From positions 1 to 29,337 of IMG/VR virus record IMGVR_UViG_3300029258_001841: a stretch of DNA of 29,337 nt. One strand, written 5' to 3'. Within the stretch, counting starts at the first letter, position 1. Every line of letters starts with the position of its first letter. Below are positions 2,445 to 22,419 of this stretch, piece by piece. The notes below the pieces were generated by a model. It ran no database searches and was not told the DNA's origin. It saw only the letters and a program-made list of their open reading frames with translations. This stretch comes from a virus. Both the position numbers and the translations under genes were made by a program.

Positions 2445-3405
2445 CGGCGGCCTCCATCGCCCGCGCTCTCACGGCGGGGCAGTCAGGGTTAGTGCAGTAG
2501 TCCCGTCCCCAACGCGGTAGCTCATCGACCTTCTTGATTGCTCCACAGTACCTGCATCTCAGGTCTAAACTCGTCTTATCAACTGGTAGGCAATCGTGTT
2601 TTGGTAGTCTTGTCAGTAGTTCGCTTAATGCCCCCACCGCCTTGTCGCGGTTTTGCATTAAGGTTTCGATAGACGATACAATCTCCTCTTCGTGTGCGCA
2701 TGATAATGCAATCATTGCCTTGGCACCAAGGCTGCGCCAGTACATAACTATATCCCGCCACTTGTCCCGCTCCCGCTCAAGGGCGGACACTGCTGTGCGG
2801 AGTTTGTCGAGATATTTGTCTCCACGCTCTTCATATCCGCGAAGGATGGATTCAACATTCTCCAACAACTCCCCCACGTCGCCCGTCGGCGGGGTCAGGG
2901 GCTTGGATATCCGCGCTAACACATGGCTGACTGCCGTGCATCCCATTTCGTCACAATCATGTTCTGAATCGTCAGGAGGGTCGCCGACTATAACGTACTC
3001 AGTTTCGGACTCATAGCACTCGGCAGCCTTATATCCTTCGGGAATACAAGATGTGGGTTCCGGTTCGGGATTTGCCCTTGCTGGAATTATCCATTCCACT
3101 GTATGTCCACAGGTATCATGTTTATGGGTCACAAAAGCTGCACCTACTTCTTGACGACATTCCTGACACCACCAGTATCCATCGTCCCATTTAAACCTCA
3201 GCGTCCCACGCATCCCCGCCTCAAGCTCGGCGCGGTTGGCGCGGACGAAAGCGGCTGATTGACTGAATCCCATAGAGAACACGCGCTCAAGGACTTCTCC
3301 GTGCTCATCACCATTGGCAAGTTTACGCTCACCCCTCTTGTCACATTCTCGTGAGCGATGCATAAGGGCTTCAATCAACTCATCCAGCGTCATCTTGTCA
3401 GTCAT
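2437..3405 (-). CDS. Hypothetical multi-Cys protein with central coiled coil
   Basis: 322-aa protein from ATG 3405 (MTDKMTLDELIEALM), chosen over an ATG seven codons upstream because GGAGG is 6 nt away and the ATGA overlap with the previous stop is standard here. CQEC and a C/H pair near residues 80-100 and a C-terminal cluster (RCRYCGAIKK then CTNPDCP) look like two zinc ribbons flanking an acidic linker and a helical segment (GELLENVESIL to KWRDIVMYW). The build suggests fused copies of the small zinc proteins around it. Function not recognised. Confidence 0.6.
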   Translation of the reverse strand: MTDKMTLDELIEALMHRSRECDKRGERKLANGDEHGEVLERVFSMGFSQSAAFVRANRAELEAGMRGTLRFKWDDGYWWCQECRQEVGAAFVTHKHDTCGHTVEWIIPARANPEPEPTSCIPEGYKAAECYESETEYVIVGDPPDDSEHDCDEMGCTAVSHVLARISKPLTPPTGDVGELLENVESILRGYEERGDKYLDKLRTAVSALERERDKWRDIVMYWRSLGAKAMIALSCAHEEEIVSSIETLMQNRDKAVGALSELLTRLPKHDCLPVDKTSLDLRCRYCGAIKKVDELPRWGRDYCTNPDCPAVRARAMEAADD

Positions 3406-4217
3406 CGGTGTCCTCCAACCCGCCACTCGGCGGGGTATTCGCGGGGTAAGTCGGCGTTTAGATAACGGTAATCATAAATCCACTGGTCCGATGTCCCGGC
3501 CTCGTGATATGCATTGCGCTTCACAAATCGCGGTGCTGTGCTTGGCTGATGCAGCCATCCGATTGTCGCCTCACTCACAGGCTTGTCCGGCCCGGTCTGG
3601 CCGCCGATGACGACCCATGAAAACCAATCGTCAGCGAATACGGGATGCTCCAAACCATACCAAGGTTCTAGTGAAACCCACGTATGCGCGGGGTCGATAC
3701 CGCTCATGTCGGCATATCGGCTTTCAAGCTCTTCCTGCGTTGTCGCCGTGAATCCGCACCAGACGTTCTCAGGCCACTTTTCTATCAGCCCGTACCACGC
3801 CGGGTTCTTCGTCAGGAGGAGGCAGATGTGCGTGGCGTTGAGTGAGGCGAAGCGGGCCATCTCATGTGCTACCACCTTTGGAGTACAGCCGCCCGCCGAA
3901 TCGTCGCTGCGATATTCATTCCACCACCAGTTACCCCCCACATCACCCATATCGTTCAGGAAGATAAGCCACTTGCTTCGCTTCCCGACTGGATGAATGC
4001 GCTCAGTGTGGAAAGTTGGGGCAAATCCATACGGGTATGCCGGATTGCCCCGTAGCCGCGTCGCGACCAACCGCTTGGCGTAACATGGAACCTTGCAGAT
4101 ACCCGTCGCGTGATGGTTGCAGCCCGTGATGATATTCCAGACCCGGCCGGGACGGTTTATCAGCTTCCCGCTATCGCGGATGTAGTCGATATTGCTCTTG
4201 TGTGGTTGTCCGGTCAT
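3402..4217 (-). CDS. Phage Gp37/Gp68 family protein (DUF5131), three-Cys motif
   Basis: 271-aa protein matching the Gp37/Gp68 (DUF5131) family: the N-terminal WNIITGCNHHATGICKVPC gives C33, C41 and C45, the three-Cys signature that resembles a radical-SAM-type iron-sulfur site with altered spacing. Later family blocks are WLIFLNDMGDV, HICLLLTKNPAW, WCGFTATTQEE and SWVVIGGQTGPDKP, consistent with a TIM-barrel-like core. The family is widespread in phages, and some members are encoded beside the partner protein TcmP; no such partner is seen here. Chemistry is not established. The start at 4217 is followed by a long conserved N-terminus. Confidence 0.8.
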   Translation of the reverse strand: MTGQPHKSNIDYIRDSGKLINRPGRVWNIITGCNHHATGICKVPCYAKRLVATRLRGNPAYPYGFAPTFHTERIHPVGKRSKWLIFLNDMGDVGGNWWWNEYRSDDSAGGCTPKVVAHEMARFASLNATHICLLLTKNPAWYGLIEKWPENVWCGFTATTQEELESRYADMSGIDPAHTWVSLEPWYGLEHPVFADDWFSWVVIGGQTGPDKPVSEATIGWLHQPSTAPRFVKRNAYHEAGTSDQWIYDYRYLNADLPREYPAEWRVGGHR

Positions 4218-15353: not shown

Positions 15354-16028
15354 GTGAGCAATCCTGAGCGCGATATTTGGGATGACATCGAAGCGGAGTA
15401 CATCACGACCGACATCAGCCTCCGCGAACTCGCCGATAAGCATAATGTTAGTTACGGCACTCTCCGCAATAAGTCGATGGAGCGCGGCTGGTCTGACAGG
15501 CGCAAGCAGTACCGCGAGGATAAAATCCGGAAAATCCTCGAAACGCAGAAGGATGAAGCTCAGGAAGTCCGCGATACTATCGATGCTTTATCGGAACGAG
15601 TTTGCTTACTGGCGGCGAGGAAGTCGGCAGTCGAGATGACGGAGTACCATCAAGGGAAGAAGCCGATGAGTCAGGCGGAAGTATCGGGACACCTTCATAT
15701 CATCGCGAAAGCTCAAGAGGTTTTATATCGACGGCTCGGTGTCCCGCCACCGAAAACTACTATCGCCCTGACCGATGAAGCCGCCTTCGGGGAATATCAG
15801 AAGCGGCTCGCCATCGAGATGGGAATTTTCATTCGGGAAGGAGCAATCGGAGTGAAGATTATCGAGGGTGGAGGCGACCGGGATGGCGACGAGCGGCTCG
15901 CGCTCGGTGACGGTAACGGGGAAAGCACGGAAGGGAAATACGTCGAACTGAAACTCAAGCCTCCGGAATTCGATGACGAACCGGAGCCGGAAAATCCAAA
16001 CGAAGGAGATGAGAGCGATGAAGGATGA
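15354..16028 (+). CDS. terS: Terminase small subunit
   Basis: 224-aa protein starting with GTG. The N-terminal helix-turn-helix (WDDIEAEYITTDISLREL, HNVSYGTLRNKSMERGW) is the standard start of many phage small terminases that recognise the packaging site. A long helical middle (EAQEVRDTIDALSERV, EVSGHLHIIAKAQEVLYRRL) would form the oligomerisation core, and the tail is acidic and Pro/Glu-rich. It is separated from the large subunit by about 3.6 kb holding the 7-deazaguanine cassette, whereas the two are usually adjacent. No usual Shine-Dalgarno precedes the GTG. Confidence 0.75.
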   Translation: MSNPERDIWDDIEAEYITTDISLRELADKHNVSYGTLRNKSMERGWSDRRKQYREDKIRKILETQKDEAQEVRDTIDALSERVCLLAARKSAVEMTEYHQGKKPMSQAEVSGHLHIIAKAQEVLYRRLGVPPPKTTIALTDEAAFGEYQKRLAIEMGIFIREGAIGVKIIEGGGDRDGDERLALGDGNGESTEGKYVELKLKPPEFDDEPEPENPNEGDESDEG

Positions 16029-16203
16029 GCACGGCTATGACATGGCTGATGGGGATACTCGCGGTCGGATGCCGGGAGGTCGTGGAGAAGGTCCGGGCGG
16101 ACAGTGCACCTGTCCCGAATGCGGCTATACCATGGCGCATGAGACCGGGCAACCATGCTACGAGATAACCTGTCCGAAGTGCGGGGCGAAGATGGGGCGA
16201 TGA
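16018..16203 (+). CDS. 61-aa glycine-rich zinc-ribbon protein
   Basis: Starts MKDEHGYDMADG at 16018 (GGAGAT upstream), overlapping terS by 11 nt and queE by 4 nt. A Gly/Arg-rich N-terminus (GRMPGGRGEGPGGQ) leads to CTCPECGYTMAHETGQPC and CPKCGAKM, a two-knuckle ribbon with His. Small proteins with this pattern are found in many bacteria and archaea, with no known function. Its place at the head of the modification genes makes it a candidate accessory subunit, which is inference only. Confidence 0.7.
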   Translation: MKDEHGYDMADGDTRGRMPGGRGEGPGGQCTCPECGYTMAHETGQPCYEITCPKCGAKMGR

Positions 16204-16802
16204 CTATGGAATTCGGCATCAATGAGATTTTCTACAGCATCCAAGGCGAGGGATTTCATGCCGGACGGTCGGCGCTTTTCATCCGCTTCGCCGGGTGCAA
16301 TCTCAACTGCGACTTCTGCGATACCGATTTTTCGGAAGCGGTCCGGCTCAGCGCGGAAGGAATCATCGAGATGGGGAGAGCCGCTCTCGGGGAACGGGGA
16401 GCGGGTAGACCGTCTATCATCGTGCTGACCGGAGGAGAGCCAGCTCTTCAGGCTACCGGGCCGCTCCTGACTCTGCTTCGTAAACGGCTCTGCCCGTACA
16501 TCGCTATCGAAACGAACGGTACGGTCCCCATCAAATGCGCTCCCGACTGGATAACCCTCAGTCCGAAGTCGGAAGATGGCCTCGTCCTCACTACCTGCGA
16601 TGAACTGAAGGTCGTTTATCCGGCTGGGGTGGACCCGCTCGCATTCGAGCGCTTCGGGACGGGTAAGCGATACATCCAGCCGCTGTGGGTCGCGGACCGA
16701 TACATCCGGGAGGTTTATCTTCGTGACGCAATCAATTTCGTATTGGAGAATTACCGGTGGAAATTATCAATCCAAACTCATAAACTAATCGGGGTGAAAT
16801 GA
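16200..16802 (+). CDS. queE: 7-carboxy-7-deazaguanine synthase (radical SAM)
   Basis: 200-aa enzyme that rearranges 6-carboxytetrahydropterin to 7-carboxy-7-deazaguanine, step three of preQ0 synthesis. The N-terminal FYSIQGEGFHAGR is the QueE hallmark; CNLNCDFC gives the radical-SAM C33-x3-C37-x2-C40 that holds the 4Fe-4S cluster, followed by DTDFS. LTGGEPALQ is the SAM-binding GGE motif, and ETNGT and LSPKS follow in the usual order. Length fits the family. ATG 16200 overlaps the zinc-ribbon stop; ATG 16206 is an alternative. Translationally coupled to queD by ATGA. Confidence 0.93.
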   Translation: MTMEFGINEIFYSIQGEGFHAGRSALFIRFAGCNLNCDFCDTDFSEAVRLSAEGIIEMGRAALGERGAGRPSIIVLTGGEPALQATGPLLTLLRKRLCPYIAIETNGTVPIKCAPDWITLSPKSEDGLVLTTCDELKVVYPAGVDPLAFERFGTGKRYIQPLWVADRYIREVYLRDAINFVLENYRWKLSIQTHKLIGVK

Positions 16803-17161
16803 TGATTATCTGTAAGACCTACGGCTTCGATGCCGCACACCATCTGACGGAAGTACCGGAGCATCACCCATGCTCCTTCGTTCACGGTCATAGTTATCGA
16901 GTTGATATCGCTCTGGAATCAGAGGCACTGGAAAAGGGTATGGTCCTCGACTTCCACCAGCTCGATGATATCATGCGACCTATCCTCGCACAGTTCGACC
17001 ACTCCGACCTGAACGACACACTCGAGAATCCTACCGCTGAGCTGATATCAATCTGGATTGCTCAGAACATCGTGATGTTAATCCCGCAAGGCATCCGGCT
17101 GCTTTTCGTCCGGGTGTGGGAGACGGAGAAAGCTTATGCCGAGTACCGACCCACTGGCTGA
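16799..17161 (+). CDS. queD: 6-carboxy-5,6,7,8-tetrahydropterin synthase
   Basis: 120-aa QueD, which turns dihydroneopterin triphosphate into 6-carboxytetrahydropterin. Zinc ligands are visible as H15 (FDAAHHL) with H29 and H31 (VHGHSY); C25 in HPCSF is the catalytic cysteine; DFHQLDD, FDHSDLND (Asp-His pair) and NPTAE follow in family order, and the pterin-holding Glu lies in VRVWETE. Full length. The 3' end overlaps folE by 26 nt, so all four synthesis genes are tightly coupled. A second ATG directly follows the first. Confidence 0.94.
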   Translation: MMIICKTYGFDAAHHLTEVPEHHPCSFVHGHSYRVDIALESEALEKGMVLDFHQLDDIMRPILAQFDHSDLNDTLENPTAELISIWIAQNIVMLIPQGIRLLFVRVWETEKAYAEYRPTG

Positions 17162-17666
17162 CCTATACCGAGCAATCGTCGAGGAGTTTGATGACCCGAA
17201 GCGTGAAGGGGTCCGCGAGACACCGGAACGAGCGGCGAGGGCAATGCGCGAACTTCTGACCCCGGTCGAGTTCCGCTTTACCACGTTCGAGTCGCAGGGC
17301 TACGACCAGATGATTGTAGACCGGGATATCAAGTTTTTTTCGCTCTGCGAACATCACATGATTCCCTTCTTCGGCACCTGCTCCATCGGATATATCCCGA
17401 AGGACCGAATCGTCGGTTTATCGAAGCTGACCCGCTGCGTGAATTATTTCGCCCACAGGCTCAATACTCAGGAGTACATGACTCAGAATATAGCCGACTT
17501 CATCGAAGAGAAACTAAAACCGAAGGGTGTAGGTGTGATAATCAAAGCGCGACACCTCTGCCGGGAGATGCGCGGGGTTCAGGGTCATGGCGAGATGATT
17601 ACGTCATGCCTGAAAGGAATTTTTCTTCACAATCCCGAAGTGCGAGAGGAGTTCATGAAGTTATGA
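17136..17666 (+). CDS. folE: GTP cyclohydrolase I
   Basis: 176-aa FolE (type IA), which opens GTP to dihydroneopterin triphosphate, the first step of the 7-deazaguanine path. SLCEHHMIPFFG supplies zinc ligands C71 and H74, LSKLTRCVNYFAHRLNTQE is the active-site helix, and ARHLCREMRG provides C142. It is somewhat shorter than E. coli FolE at the N-terminus but complete in its core. GGAG upstream of ATG 17136 lies inside queD. A phage copy lets the pathway outrun host folate-linked supply. Confidence 0.95.
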   Translation: MPSTDPLADLYRAIVEEFDDPKREGVRETPERAARAMRELLTPVEFRFTTFESQGYDQMIVDRDIKFFSLCEHHMIPFFGTCSIGYIPKDRIVGLSKLTRCVNYFAHRLNTQEYMTQNIADFIEEKLKPKGVGVIIKARHLCREMRGVQGHGEMITSCLKGIFLHNPEVREEFMKL

Positions 17667-18298
17667 AAGCAGTCATCCTTCTGAGCGGTGGTATGGATTC
17701 GGCTATCTGCATTGCGCTCGCAATCGAGCAGGGATTTGAACCATATCTATTCCACATGAGCTATGGACAACGGACCGAAAAACGCGAATTGAAGTCGGTC
17801 ATCAATCTCGCGAAGCATTACGGGCTCAATCATCCGGAGCGGGTATTGATAGTGACTGACCGGACAATCTCATATATCGGCGGGAACGCCATCACGGACA
17901 GAAATATTCCGGTGCCCACGGATGGGGAAATAATCGGCGTTCCCGCTACCTTCGTTCCTTTCCGGAACGCAATCCTTCTCTCCTACGCCGTAACATGGGC
18001 TCAGGTTATCGAAGCGGAAGCGATTTATTTCGGCGTGGTCGATGGGGAGAGGAGCAGATATCCCGACTGTCATAAAGAATTTATCGAGTCGTATCAGTTA
18101 GCCGTGGATGCGGGGATTCCCGATAATCGAATTCAGGTAATTACCCCGCTCTATTACGACACGAAGAGGGAAGCTTATGAATGCGCTTTACGACTCAACG
18201 TACCGCTTGAACTGACGTGGAGCTGTTACCAGAATGAAAACGAACCATGCGGGAAATGCGAATCATGTATGGCGCGAGCGAAAGCGATGGATTTATGA
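17663..18298 (+). CDS. queC: 7-cyano-7-deazaguanine (preQ0) synthase
   Basis: 211-aa QueC, which uses ATP and ammonia to convert 7-carboxy-7-deazaguanine to preQ0. The PP-loop SGGMDS is at residues 8-13, SYGQR follows, and the C-terminal zinc site is C188 with CGKCESC (C196, C199, C202). No glutamine-amidotransferase domain is attached, so this is not the Gat-QueC form that leads toward archaeosine in some phages. Start at ATG 17663 overlaps the folE stop; a longer frame to 17606 is not needed. Confidence 0.95.
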   Translation: MKAVILLSGGMDSAICIALAIEQGFEPYLFHMSYGQRTEKRELKSVINLAKHYGLNHPERVLIVTDRTISYIGGNAITDRNIPVPTDGEIIGVPATFVPFRNAILLSYAVTWAQVIEAEAIYFGVVDGERSRYPDCHKEFIESYQLAVDAGIPDNRIQVITPLYYDTKREAYECALRLNVPLELTWSCYQNENEPCGKCESCMARAKAMDL

Positions 18299-19107
18299 TT
18301 ATCTACCACGTCGAACCCCTTCACTGGGTAGGGTATACGGAAAAGATGGGTGCGGAAAAATACGACGCGCTCTATTCTTTCGTAAACAAAACCACCATCG
18401 AGAATCAGGTATTCCCGAGCACGAACATCAATCGCCTCTTTATTGACTCTGGAGCATTCAGCGCTTTCACCCGAGGAGTGGAGATTAACCTCGATGAGTA
18501 TTGCGAATGGCTCCGTGCTCATGAAAAGCGGATTACATCATACGCCGCACTTGACGTTATCCGGAACTGGCGGGGTAGTAGAACCAATCTTGACCGGATG
18601 CTTTCATACGGACTGAATCCGATTCCCGTTTTCCACGCGCAAAGCCCGATGGAGGAATTGCGTCGGCTCTGCAAGGAACATGACTATATCGGCCTTGGCG
18701 GTATAGCGGACGACGTGAAGCGCCGCCGCCAGCTCCTTACCACTTGGCTTGATTCCTGCTTTTCAATCATCCGGGATTACTGGCCTATTAAGGTACATGG
18801 CTTCGGTATCACTATGCTTTCCGCGCTGACGAGGTATCCTTTTTATAGCGTGGACTCATCAAGCGTTACATACGCCATGAAGATGGGATTGATAATTACG
18901 TTCACCGGGTCAAGCATCCGCCAGAAAACCTATAACGAGATTGTGAAGTCGGGGAAAGGGGTAGACCTCCAGCCGCACTGCATCGATAACCCAGATGAAG
19001 AAAAATCGCGATACAAGAAACGCATCGCTCGCGCTTACAACGAATACAGGAAAGCGGAAAAATACATTACCGACCTCTGGAAGCTAAGGGGAATATCATG
19101 GGATTAA
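18295..19107 (+). CDS. dpdA: DpdA-like DNA 7-deazaguanine transglycosylase
   Basis: 270-aa TGT-superfamily barrel, taken to exchange guanine in DNA for preQ0. Key blocks are LFIDSGAFSAF with D51 (matching the general acid/base Asp of TGT's DSGGFQ), YAALDVI, YIGLGGIADD, VHGFGIT and YSVDSSS with D187 at the expected nucleophile position. Phage DpdA proteins are of this shorter size, without the extra domains of bacterial DpdA. Context is decisive: it directly follows queC with an ATGA overlap. ATG 18265 is another possible start since no strong ribosome site is seen. Sequence specificity cannot be told. Confidence 0.82.
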   Translation: MIIYHVEPLHWVGYTEKMGAEKYDALYSFVNKTTIENQVFPSTNINRLFIDSGAFSAFTRGVEINLDEYCEWLRAHEKRITSYAALDVIRNWRGSRTNLDRMLSYGLNPIPVFHAQSPMEELRRLCKEHDYIGLGGIADDVKRRRQLLTTWLDSCFSIIRDYWPIKVHGFGITMLSALTRYPFYSVDSSSVTYAMKMGLIITFTGSSIRQKTYNEIVKSGKGVDLQPHCIDNPDEEKSRYKKRIARAYNEYRKAEKYITDLWKLRGISWD

Positions 19108-19616
19108 AGCGATTCAAGGAGATTCCACTGAAGCAGCTCGATAAAGCCCCGTGGAATTACAAGACCGATAATGATGAACTGAAAGAGAAGCTGAAGGAAA
19201 ACCTTCGCCGGAACGGGCAGGTGGAAAATATCGTAGTGCGCGAGATGAAAGGTGGAAGGTACGAAATCGTAAATGGTAATCATCGCTTCGATGCTCTGGA
19301 AGAGCTGAGCTTTGAAAAAGTCATCTGCTATAACCTCGGTGAAGTCAGCGATAAGGCGGCGCGTCGGCTCGCCATCGAGCTCAATGAGACCCGATTCGAG
19401 ACGGACCGGATAAAGCTCGCCGTGACCATCAAGGATATCGCCGATGAATTCGACCTCAGTGACATATCGCTTACGACCCCGTATGAACTGGAAGAACTGG
19501 AAGCGATGGTCGACCTGCTTGATTTCGATTTCGATAAGTTCGAGGAAAAAGAACTCCCTCCCATCGATGACGGGATGATAGAATGTCCCGAGTGTGGACA
19601 TAAGTTCAAGCCATGA
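19098..19616 (+). CDS. ParB/Srx-like domain protein with C-terminal zinc ribbon
   Basis: 172-aa protein. The N-terminal 100 residues are a ParB-like nuclease domain: IPLKQLDKAPWNYKTD, LKENLRRNGQVENIVVRE, and YEIVNGNHRFDALEEL, the phage form of the GEHR nucleotide-binding motif. It ends MIECPECGHKFKP, half of a zinc ribbon. Stand-alone ParB-like proteins often precede TerL in phages. Overlapping dpdA by 10 nt and terL by 4 nt, it may take part in packaging or in DNA modification. Such domains can use CTP or cleave DNA; neither is shown here. Confidence 0.75.
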   Translation: MGLKRFKEIPLKQLDKAPWNYKTDNDELKEKLKENLRRNGQVENIVVREMKGGRYEIVNGNHRFDALEELSFEKVICYNLGEVSDKAARRLAIELNETRFETDRIKLAVTIKDIADEFDLSDISLTTPYELEELEAMVDLLDFDFDKFEEKELPPIDDGMIECPECGHKFKP

Positions 19617-21019
19617 CCTATGAGCTTGCAGAGGACCGATATATAATCGAGCCATGGCGCGCGGCGATTTTCCGGGCTACCGGATTCGAGCTGCACCCGG
19701 GACAGGCCCGGCTACTCAACAGTTTTCTCAATTATGATTTCACATGGTCTTGCGGAGGTCGTCGAGGGGGAAAGAGCGAGGTAGTGGCGAGGATTGTTTT
19801 CAGCGAGTTCGTCCGATACAAGGATACGATTCCATCGACGGAACGCTGGCCGAAAAAAATCCTCATCCTTGCCCCGGAATATAAGCAGGCCCGTATCATC
19901 TTCGGAAAGGTCCACCGACTGGTAAAGAAATTCGGAGTGCCGCTGGTCACCGACCGCTTCAGTGCGGGTGAGATGGAGCTTGAGAGCGCATGGGGCTCGC
20001 TCATCATGTGCATGACCGGGCGGAATAAGGATGCATGGCCCGGGTTCGACTGGGATTTAGTCGTCGTCGACGAGGCTCCGATTTTCAAAGATGGGGCGGC
20101 TTTCGAGGAATTGCTATTCCCGACCCTGCTCGATGCGAAAGGAAAATTCCTTGCCATCGGGACCCCGGATTATCCCGGCTCATTCTCCCATCGCTGGATG
20201 CTCGACGGACTCGACCCCGATAACGAGCAATGGGGCTTCGCGCACTGGACGACAACTGATAACTGGTACATCCCACATGCCGCCGAGTGGATAGAGCGCC
20301 AGCGGAAAAGTATCCCCGATGATATCATCCAGCGGCAGTACATGGCCCGGTATGTCAGCCGCTCCGGTCTGGTCTATAACGAGTACCTCGAATGTATCGG
20401 GGAGTTCGATACGTCGGAAATCGAGCATGGACGCTGGCATCGGGCTGGTGACTTCGGCTTCGTCAATCCGTTCGCCTGTGCGGTCGTCTGCCAGATTGGT
20501 GAAATGACTTATATCGTCGACGAGTACTATGAAACTCAGCGGAATAATTCGGAGCACGCTCCCCATCTCCGTGCGCTCGACCATAAATACCCTTTCCATA
20601 ATCGGAAAACTTTCAATGTGTGGGACCCGGAAAATCCCGAAGGAATCGACTTTCTATCGAAGTGGCGCGACTCTCAGGGTGGACGGATAAAAGGTCACTG
20701 GGTAAAAGATTACTCGAAAGGCGGAATCATCGACCGTATCGACATGATACGCCGTCGCATGATTTCCGGCCACATACGGATTCATCCTCGATGTAAAAAC
20801 TTCATCCGGGAGCTATCGCTTTACGCCTACCCGGATAAGAAGCCGGATAAGGCGGCGAGCGAGAAACCGATGGACAAAGATAATCACCTAATCAAAGCCG
20901 TCGAGTATTTGACCGAGCATCTATACGGTGATACATTTATTCCGTTAGACCCGGAGCAGTTGAAAGCGCGGTCGAGTAAGCGCAAGAGTGAAAAAATCCT
21001 GCGAGGGTATAAGTCGTGA
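19613..21019 (+). CDS. terL: Terminase large subunit
   Basis: 468-aa packaging motor. Walker A GGRRGGKS at residues 48-55, Walker B LVVVDEAP near 149-156, and a coupling block FLAIGTPDYPG form the ATPase. The C-terminal RNase-H-type nuclease begins with HRAGDFGFVNPFA (first metal Asp), with YIVDEYYE and DKDNHLIKAVEYL further on. It cuts and translocates concatemer DNA into the prohead. ATGA overlap with the ParB-like gene. Length is normal. Confidence 0.92.
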   Translation: MTYELAEDRYIIEPWRAAIFRATGFELHPGQARLLNSFLNYDFTWSCGGRRGGKSEVVARIVFSEFVRYKDTIPSTERWPKKILILAPEYKQARIIFGKVHRLVKKFGVPLVTDRFSAGEMELESAWGSLIMCMTGRNKDAWPGFDWDLVVVDEAPIFKDGAAFEELLFPTLLDAKGKFLAIGTPDYPGSFSHRWMLDGLDPDNEQWGFAHWTTTDNWYIPHAAEWIERQRKSIPDDIIQRQYMARYVSRSGLVYNEYLECIGEFDTSEIEHGRWHRAGDFGFVNPFACAVVCQIGEMTYIVDEYYETQRNNSEHAPHLRALDHKYPFHNRKTFNVWDPENPEGIDFLSKWRDSQGGRIKGHWVKDYSKGGIIDRIDMIRRRMISGHIRIHPRCKNFIRELSLYAYPDKKPDKAASEKPMDKDNHLIKAVEYLTEHLYGDTFIPLDPEQLKARSSKRKSEKILRGYKS

Positions 21020-22419
21020 CAGATACTCAGGCCACCGACAAAGTAGTAGCAGAGAAGGAGCGAGTCGCAGTCTGGAAACCCCGCGAATATCGGCAGTACA
21101 TCCATCTCGCGAGCCAAGTCAAAAAGAATATTAAGGCGCTTCTGAATGTTCAATCGGACCCTCAGACGGCGCACGATATTTGGGCGTCCATCTACCAGTA
21201 CATGCCGAATCCCGATAACATCCTCGCCATCGCCGGACAGACATCAATCGAGTTCTATGACTCAATGATGGATAGCGATTCATACCTCACCGGATTAATC
21301 GGCATCAGGAAGGATGCGGTCACCGGGCTACCTTGGACTATCGTCCCGGTAAGTGATGACCCCGCCGATGAAGAGCTCGCGGAGTGGGTCGATGAGCAGC
21401 TAAGAAATATCGAGGAGTTCGAGGATGACATGGAGGAGTTGCTCGGTGCGATAACTACCGGGTATGCAGTCAGCGAAATAATGTGGGCGATGAAAGAAAA
21501 CCGAATCGTCCCGGTCGAACTCCTGTCACGTCGACCTTCGCGATTCGTGTTCGGTTATGATTACGAGTTGCGCCTCATCACGAAAGAGAACTGGTTCGGG
21601 GAGGAAGTGCCGCCGAATAAATTCATCGTGCATCGGAATCGGAAGCGGTATGAGAATCCCTACGGTATCAGTGCCTGCCGCTCCGTTTACTGGCCTTGGC
21701 ATTTCAAGCACCACGGCTTCCAGTGGTGGATAATCGCCGCCGAGCGGAACGCTGTGCCTACCCCGCATGGGAAGTATCCCGCTGACTGGGACAATGACCA
21801 GCAGGATGATTTATTCGAAGCTCTGCTCGGCTTCCAGAACGATAATGCAATCATCACAGCGGAAGGGACGGAGCTTGATTTCTTCCAGACGAAAACCGAC
21901 CCGCAACTCAACGAGAAGCTACGGGATGCCTGTAATGAAGAGCTCGCGTGGGGAATCATCGGGTCTACTCACTCGACCGGGACAGGCTCCAAAGGTGGTG
22001 GCTCTTACGCCCTCGCTTATGAGCACGGCACGGTCCGGCAGGATATACTCGAGCGGGACTGCCGCCGATTGATGTCGACTATTAATAAGCAGCTCGTCGA
22101 ACCGATGATAATCCTTAACTTCGGCGAACAGCGCGAGTATCCAAGATTCAAGCTGGAATACGAGCCGCCGGGTGACCGCGAGCTGGAAATGAAAATCACG
22201 AGCGAAGCGGTGAAGATAGGGATGCAGGTCGATGAGATTGATGCCGCCGAGCGGACCGGAGTAAAGCTCGCAGAGCAAGAGAGCGATGCAATCAAGATGC
22301 CGAGCCCCGCGGGATTATTTGGTAGTGGGAATAGTCAGGAGGAGGAAGAGGAAGAAGAGAAAGAGGAAGTTCCCGAGCTCAGAAATAAATACTGGGACTG
22401 GCCTTTGAAGATGCGATGA
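21016..22419 (+). CDS. Portal protein, DUF935 (Mu gp29-like)
   Basis: 467-aa portal with GTG start overlapping terL (GTGA). DUF935 features include SDSYLTGLIGIRKDAVTGLPW, a WA/ISEIMW-type block (GYAVSEIMWAM), HRNRKRYENPYG, and the FKHHGFQWWIIAAERNAVP helix. The dodecameric ring forms the DNA entry vertex. The C-terminus carries an acidic run (QEEEEEEEKEE) before the last helix. Next to a MuF gene as in Mu-like heads. Confidence 0.9.
   Translation: MTDTQATDKVVAEKERVAVWKPREYRQYIHLASQVKKNIKALLNVQSDPQTAHDIWASIYQYMPNPDNILAIAGQTSIEFYDSMMDSDSYLTGLIGIRKDAVTGLPWTIVPVSDDPADEELAEWVDEQLRNIEEFEDDMEELLGAITTGYAVSEIMWAMKENRIVPVELLSRRPSRFVFGYDYELRLITKENWFGEEVPPNKFIVHRNRKRYENPYGISACRSVYWPWHFKHHGFQWWIIAAERNAVPTPHGKYPADWDNDQQDDLFEALLGFQNDNAIITAEGTELDFFQTKTDPQLNEKLRDACNEELAWGIIGSTHSTGTGSKGGGSYALAYEHGTVRQDILERDCRRLMSTINKQLVEPMIILNFGEQREYPRFKLEYEPPGDRELEMKITSEAVKIGMQVDEIDAAERTGVKLAEQESDAIKMPSPAGLFGSGNSQEEEEEEEKEEVPELRNKYWDWPLKMR

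Follow-up and report, generated by a model that had tools for sequence, protein, structure and literature searches.

Why should a phage carry a complete set of genes for the synthesis of preQ0 (7-cyano-7-deazaguanine) between the two subunits of its terminase? The question arises from the virus record IMGVR_UViG_3300029258_001841, whose entire 29,337 bases constitute the window analysed here. A second record of 19,995 bases matches the window end at 100% and adds 6,470 bases of which the content, judged by reading alone, resembles tail genes; the resulting 35.8 kb are an incomplete genome. We consider it quite probable that the cassette swaps preQ0 into phage DNA together with a ParB-like partner, late and near packaging. 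The identities, folds, order and linkage of the genes, and a correlation between the carboxyl-terminal tail of the transglycosylase DpdA and its neighbour, are observed; product, ParB function and timing are the predicted parts of this reading.

A preQ0 cassette ending in DpdA and a ParB-like gene

Along the plus strand, genes for the small terminase subunit (TerS), a Zn-ribbon protein, QueE, QueD, FolE, QueC, DpdA, the ParB-like protein, the large terminase subunit (TerL), a Mu-type portal protein and head proteins follow one another. They overlap by 4 to 26 nt throughout, from TerS through portal: 11 nt for TerS/Zn-ribbon, 4 for Zn-ribbon/QueE, 4 for QueE/QueD, 26 for QueD/FolE, 4 for FolE/QueC, 4 for QueC/DpdA, 10 for DpdA/ParB and 4 for ParB/TerL. 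A preliminary description of this DNA had recognized a preQ0 cassette with DpdA between terS and terL; its genes, frames and overlaps are real. The cassette span it gave, 16018-19107, does hold the que genes and DpdA, but its first gene (16018-16203) codes for the Zn-ribbon protein and the stretch runs on through the ParB-like gene (19098-19616), which had been overlooked. As a whole, that interpretation is partly supported.

All four enzymes of the preQ0 pathway are present, as the preliminary description had proposed, with profile matches and solved homologues aligned along nearly their full length (E-values in brackets). QueE, a 7-carboxy-7-deazaguanine synthase starting with the ATG at 16200 (16200-16802), matches phrog_2076 (3e-30) and 4njg (8.5e-30, residues 3-199). 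QueD, a 6-carboxytetrahydropterin synthase (16799-17161), matches PF01242 (5.8e-30) and, among structures, 2oba best (1.8e-21), along with 4ntm and 4ntk. The GTP cyclohydrolase I FolE (17136-17666) matches PF01227 (2.4e-57) and solved FolE proteins (up to 7.3e-41), and the preQ0 synthase QueC (17663-18298) matches PF06508 (3.6e-60) and 2pg3 (6e-25). NCBIfam cut-offs are reached by QueC (TIGR00364) and by FolE subfamily models. FolE, QueD, QueE and QueC would together convert GTP to preQ0.

By alignment and model, the 270-residue product of 18295-19107 is a phage DpdA of the 9g type, a barrel like that of tRNA-guanine transglycosylases (TGTs), predicted to insert a 7-deazaguanine into DNA. Its best profile is phrog_887, "queuine tRNA-ribosyltransferase" (3.8e-45); no Pfam or NCBIfam model matched at E 0.1, and a sequence search of the PDB gave two chance-level matches, neither to a TGT. 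D51, H168 and D187 are invariant in an alignment with 14 phage DpdAs (15/15 sequences) and also in 31/31 sequences; by analogy with TGT, we take the two aspartates to be catalytic. H168 is the equivalent of H196 of phage 9g. DpdA2 lacks a histidine at that position (PMC6884629), and membership in DpdA2 was rejected because the window protein has it. The AlphaFold2 model, built from 31 sequences, has a predicted local distance difference test score (pLDDT) of 85.5. When the 1000 top Foldseek PDB chains were aligned to it with VIA-align, TGTs came out best, led by archaeosine TGT (Z 20.1, root mean square deviation 3.0, 253/270 residues aligned, 15% identity), with that of Z. mobilis at Z 19.4. 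Among BFVD models, the best matches that carry a name are queuine tRNA-ribosyltransferases of phages; the top-ranked one is nameless, and rank 5 is Arthrobacter phage Mufasa8 (template modelling score 0.82). The DpdA hallmarks assigned to this gene from the start recur in profile, residues and fold.

A QueF profile run over both records matched only the FolE gene itself, DpdC (PF03883) and ArcS (PF17884) profiles had no match in these 35.8 kb of an incomplete genome, and no amidotransferase domain was found on QueC. This upholds, over a longer sequence, the absence of QueF, ArcS and amidotransferase-fused QueC from which deoxy-preQ0 had been deduced. Since the full preQ0 pathway and DpdA are accompanied by an unfused QueC and by none of those enzymes, 2'-deoxy-preQ0 (dPreQ0) is the simplest product and our best guess, a prediction still because the genome is incomplete. 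The same minimal gene set yields dPreQ0 in Rosebush and CAjan (PMC6884629). DpdA, with its TGT fold, would exchange guanine in phage DNA for preQ0, and the resulting dPreQ0 would shield this DNA from host restriction.

Between dpdA and terL, the 172-residue product of 19098-19616 has a ParB-like NTPase fold (PF02195, 8.7e-10). Its model (pLDDT 90.7) finds ParB and Noc structures, several of them nucleotide-bound, as best PDB matches. The nucleotide-motif arginine, whose role in the ParB fold is described in PMC12704722, is R63 in GNHR. The protein probably functions within the cassette by helping DpdA; it would contact the carboxyl-terminal tail of DpdA and load or hold the enzyme on DNA. In bacteria, DpdA has a ParB-like partner, DpdB, which some Dpd clusters can do without (PMC12839542), and the ORF1 ParB of mycobacteriophage CRB2 was suggested as a possible DpdB homologue (PMC6392294). 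ParB-domain proteins also occur with or close to CmoX, a different enzyme by which phages modify DNA (PMC12783734). No model named DpdB was found among the profile matches, which included no comparison to a DpdB reference sequence. A survey devoted to the ParB fold and published in 2025 (PMC12704722) uses neither the word queuosine nor the word transglycosylase.

Neighbours and carboxyl-terminal tails of DpdA

The neighbours of DpdA were surveyed in 16 phage records hand-picked from 253 with a match, in 78 of the best 80 of 556 IMG/VR loci (the other two being the same phage as the window) and in the window, 95 loci that form 86 clusters at 90% identity. ParB was counted up to 1.5 kb from DpdA and a clamp gene up to 3.5 kb downstream of it, the latter named from record annotations, with weak or no Pfam support (2 weak matches in 6). 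ParB adjoins DpdA in 43/86 loci, downstream in 24 and upstream in 19, a polymerase-clamp gene is found without ParB in 34, and 9 have neither; among these 9, locus L029 ends at a contig edge and L076 has ParB beside tandem DpdAs. Cellulophaga phage phi38:2, counted among the 43, is the single locus with both. The mutual exclusion of ParB and clamp has a Fisher p of 3e-14 across loci that are related to one another. The nucleotide-motif arginine is kept in 23 of the 24 downstream ParBs. Two neighbouring DpdA genes occur in L020, L033, L034, L051, L062, L098 and L100, which suggests paired or heteromeric transglycosylases.

The last 14 residues of the window DpdA (19063-19104) are of the kind seen with a downstream ParB. 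The pattern T.LW..RG[IV].W, written after this first set had been seen, is present in 20/24 DpdAs with downstream ParB, 0/19 with upstream ParB, 0/34 with clamp and 1/9 with neither, the last being L029, whose contig ends just past DpdA. A second set was obtained by two scans seeded with clamp-type and ParB-downstream alignments, which gave at least 136 new loci; 80 clusters without a 90%-identity member in the first set comprise 66 clamp, 8 ParB-downstream and 6 neither, proportions that mirror the two queries. Among the matches listed, the tail is found in 8/8 ParB-downstream, 0/66 clamp and 1/6 neither, the 8/8 being biased upward because the ranking of loci favoured those similar to a tail-bearing query. 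The single case in the class with neither, L191, has a ParB-like frame directly after DpdA, extended 5' by the calling of open reading frames. The motif is absent from 733 other proteins of these loci. A terminal tryptophan arising merely from the dpdA/parB overlap was rejected as an explanation, since the motif stays in L028, L030, L032, L036 and L061, in which no overlap is called between the two genes. The correlation of tail and partner is observed; the partner function of ParB is proposed.

For the tails of clamp-type DpdAs, a loose pattern matches 32/34 clamp types of the first set and, among the matches listed for the second, 53/66 clamp, 1/8 ParB and 1/6 neither; it was not relied on, as 118/733 control proteins also match. 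The strict pattern Q..[LIFM][FL] near the carboxyl terminus, picked after the data were seen and presumably akin to beta-clamp-binding motifs, occurs in 35/184 DpdAs of both sets versus 1/733 controls, and within the first set in 6/34 clamp, 0/43 ParB and 2/9 neither. Many clamp-adjacent DpdAs (e.g., L176, L180, L240) have DQIGLF- or DQMGLF-like ends, presumably also akin to such motifs.

We advance, tentatively and at somewhat less than even confidence, the broader proposal that DpdAs carry partner-specific docking tails: one kind, matched to a ParB-like DNA clamp encoded near packaging genes, acting late, and another, encoded beside a polymerase clamp gene and resembling sliding-clamp-binding tails, coupled to replication. 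The window would belong to the ParB kind, lying between the terminase genes so that DNA is modified while readied for packaging. The chemistry is known; the matching of DpdA to a DNA-bound partner looks new. Within open-licence literature on DpdA with clamp, ParB/DpdB or terminase, no report of partner-specific DpdA tails was found, nor, by titles and the first lines of abstracts, any paper linking DpdA to a DNA clamp. In the CRB2 paper "clamp" is only an author name, and neither ParB nor clamp appears as a word in PMC8306585.

Position next to the packaging genes

The borders of the cassette are TerS (15354-16028; phrog_1206, 1.3e-9, and three weaker TerS profiles, Pfam and NCBIfam giving no match to a TerS model) and TerL (19613-21019; phrog_2, 4.2e-31), followed by the portal gene (21016-22419; PF06074, 1.5e-90). 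Overlapping ends link the cassette in one chain to the genes of TerS, TerL and portal, so that late-operon expression is probable; the cassette would then work on DNA shortly before its packaging. A tie of modification to late expression or packaging had already been suggested, and we likewise infer it.

The placement had been called unusual. It is less so than claimed because TerL within 8 kb of DpdA is common in ParB-type loci: 26/43 in the first set, against 0/34 clamp types (26 of these 34 having at least 7.4 kb of downstream sequence) and 4/9 with neither, and, among the matches listed for the second set, 5/8 ParB, 1/66 clamp and 3/6 neither. Ares, Sour, Bipper and Megan, too, have cassettes close to terL. 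A gene or gap separates ParB from TerL in 12 ParB-downstream relatives; among 10 such stretches scanned, TerS profiles are best in 4 (L032, L033, L041, L059), L040 is weakly TerS-like and 5 have no match. TerS follows ParB in those of these relatives in which it could be identified; the window has it ahead of the cassette. FolE abuts terL in Ares, Sour and Megan, in which terS was not located and which may have a TerS/TerL split like that of the window; no locus other than the window was shown to have TerS and TerL apart.

The Zn-ribbon gene (16018-16203, 61 residues) is probably a head or packaging gene and not a que gene, since its relatives precede terL or adjoin portal. In L005, whose TerL is 74% identical, the Zn-ribbon protein is kept (71% identical) and stands alone upstream of terL, with a ParB-methyltransferase fusion where the window has the cassette; the upstream end of this locus is cut, and its TerS would lie outside the sequence. 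Other relatives (L107:3966-4730, L108:4279-5043, L110:7740-8570) are parts of longer proteins adjoining the portal gene. A role in the que pathway was rejected because relatives outside this phage lie near portal or terL with no que gene detected there. By eye, the longer proteins look like head proteins of the protease type.

None of 985 phage records has a TerL at least 60% identical to that of the window, and a host search via prophage TerL in genome contigs gave 106 pattern stretches and no relative. Elsewhere in the window, within a block of genes on the opposite strand, 3402-4217 (minus strand) encodes a 271-residue protein matching phrog_2045, of unknown function (2.9e-21).

Known systems and competing explanations

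Mycobacterium phages of the Rosebush type (Ares, L018) have ParB-like, DpdA, QueC, QueD, QueE and FolE genes directly before terL, with overlapping ends as in the window. The ParB-like gene, a "transcriptional regulator" in the Ares record, comes first in Ares and last in the window, and the Ares DpdA lacks the ParB-type tail motif that the window has. In CRB2, unlike the window, terS and terL are adjacent to each other and follow the que genes (PMC6392294). DpdA of Mufasa8 and phi38:2 overlaps a downstream ParB and has the same tail as the window; both phages differ from it by the presence of QueF-like genes and in that no TerL was found within 8 kb or in the available flank. Mufasa8 gene 92 (L010:9509-9916), annotated as GTP cyclohydrolase, matches phi38:2 QueF and lies beside a separate FolE. 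Queuovirinae phage 9g has QueE, QueC, QueD, FolE and a DpdA that shares its conserved residues with the window protein; there a DNA polymerase clamp gene follows DpdA and no ParB adjoins it, whereas the window has ParB. An amidotransferase is part of QueC in 9g, which produces 2'-deoxyarchaeosine (dG+) (PMC6884629), while the window QueC is unfused. Bacterial Dpd (DpdA, DpdB, DpdC), likened here by description only, pairs a TGT homologue with a ParB-like partner (PMC12839542) and includes DpdC, not found in the 35.8 kb of this phage.

Several observations weigh against preQ0 insertion assisted by ParB. Equivalog cut-offs of NCBIfam were not reached for QueE, QueD and folE (TIGR00063), the identity of TerS depends on a modest profile match, and the Foldseek PDB top 50 for the DpdA model contained no TGT, with TrpA and other generic TIM barrels ranked first, although VIA-align puts TGTs first and the refuting outcome named in the preliminary description, a grouping of the protein with non-TGT barrels, did not arise. 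Upstream ParBs keep the nucleotide-motif arginine in 8/19 cases only, and the DpdAs beside them have, by eye, no common tail. Partner type also maps almost wholly onto the DpdA tree, so that the match of tail and partner may be inherited history and not function. In a quick tree of 82 DpdAs (L104 and three without the anchor motif excluded; L076 set by hand to upstream ParB and L029 to "cut"), the clamp type forms one group (SH-like approximate likelihood ratio test 95) needing 1 change, upstream ParB needs 2 and downstream ParB 4; all labels need 6 versus a shuffled mean of 40.2, so few independent events lie behind the pattern. Finally, 9g DpdA is reported to modify plasmids in E. coli even when the clamp of the phage is missing, at 0.03-0.3% of G alone and 9-18% with 9g Gat-QueC (PMC6884629), and hence the 9g lineage has no strict need of a partner encoded by the phage.

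That the ParB-like protein serves packaging, partition or regulation and adjoins DpdA merely through a shared slot before terL is rather unlikely, even if ParB-like proteins are widespread in phages (PMC12704722) and that slot in L005 holds the methyltransferase fusion. DpdA and ParB are adjacent with no TerL found nearby in Mufasa8, phi38:2 and altogether 17/43 ParB-type loci, several on short contigs and scored with a TerL model from few seeds that misses some, and the tail motif is confined to DpdAs with a downstream ParB. Less probable still is a final base other than dPreQ0, such as 2'-deoxy-7-amido-7-deazaguanosine (dADG), 2'-deoxy-preQ1 or dG+, with DpdA modifying the DNA all the same and a later enzyme supplied by the host or by the unseen part of the genome. 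Such a later enzyme could be encoded there, as about 35.8 kb are available from two records without completeness estimate, and small amounts of dADG occur in phages with the dPreQ0 set only (PMC6884629); the profile searches, with QueF hitting FolE alone and QueC lacking an amidotransferase, argue for dPreQ0. We give very little credence to a role of the que genes in boosting host tRNA queuosine, with the TGT-like protein acting on tRNA, a function proposed for phages with que genes but without DpdA (PMC6884629). Profile, alignment and fold all place the window protein with phage DpdAs, and 9g dpdA failed to complement an E. coli tgt mutant (PMC6884629); the tree, built without any tRNA TGT, does not bear on this point.

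We privilege the reading in which the window cassette inserts preQ0 into phage DNA with the help of ParB. The pairing of DpdA tails with clamps, if true, would give a simple, testable answer to how and when a transglycosylase that exchanges one base at a time modifies the entire genome of a phage. Cassettes active in replication could then be told in advance from those active around packaging, and engineers would know the partner to co-express. The slot before terL, where a relative has a methyltransferase instead, would show phages swapping DNA-modification modules at one site.

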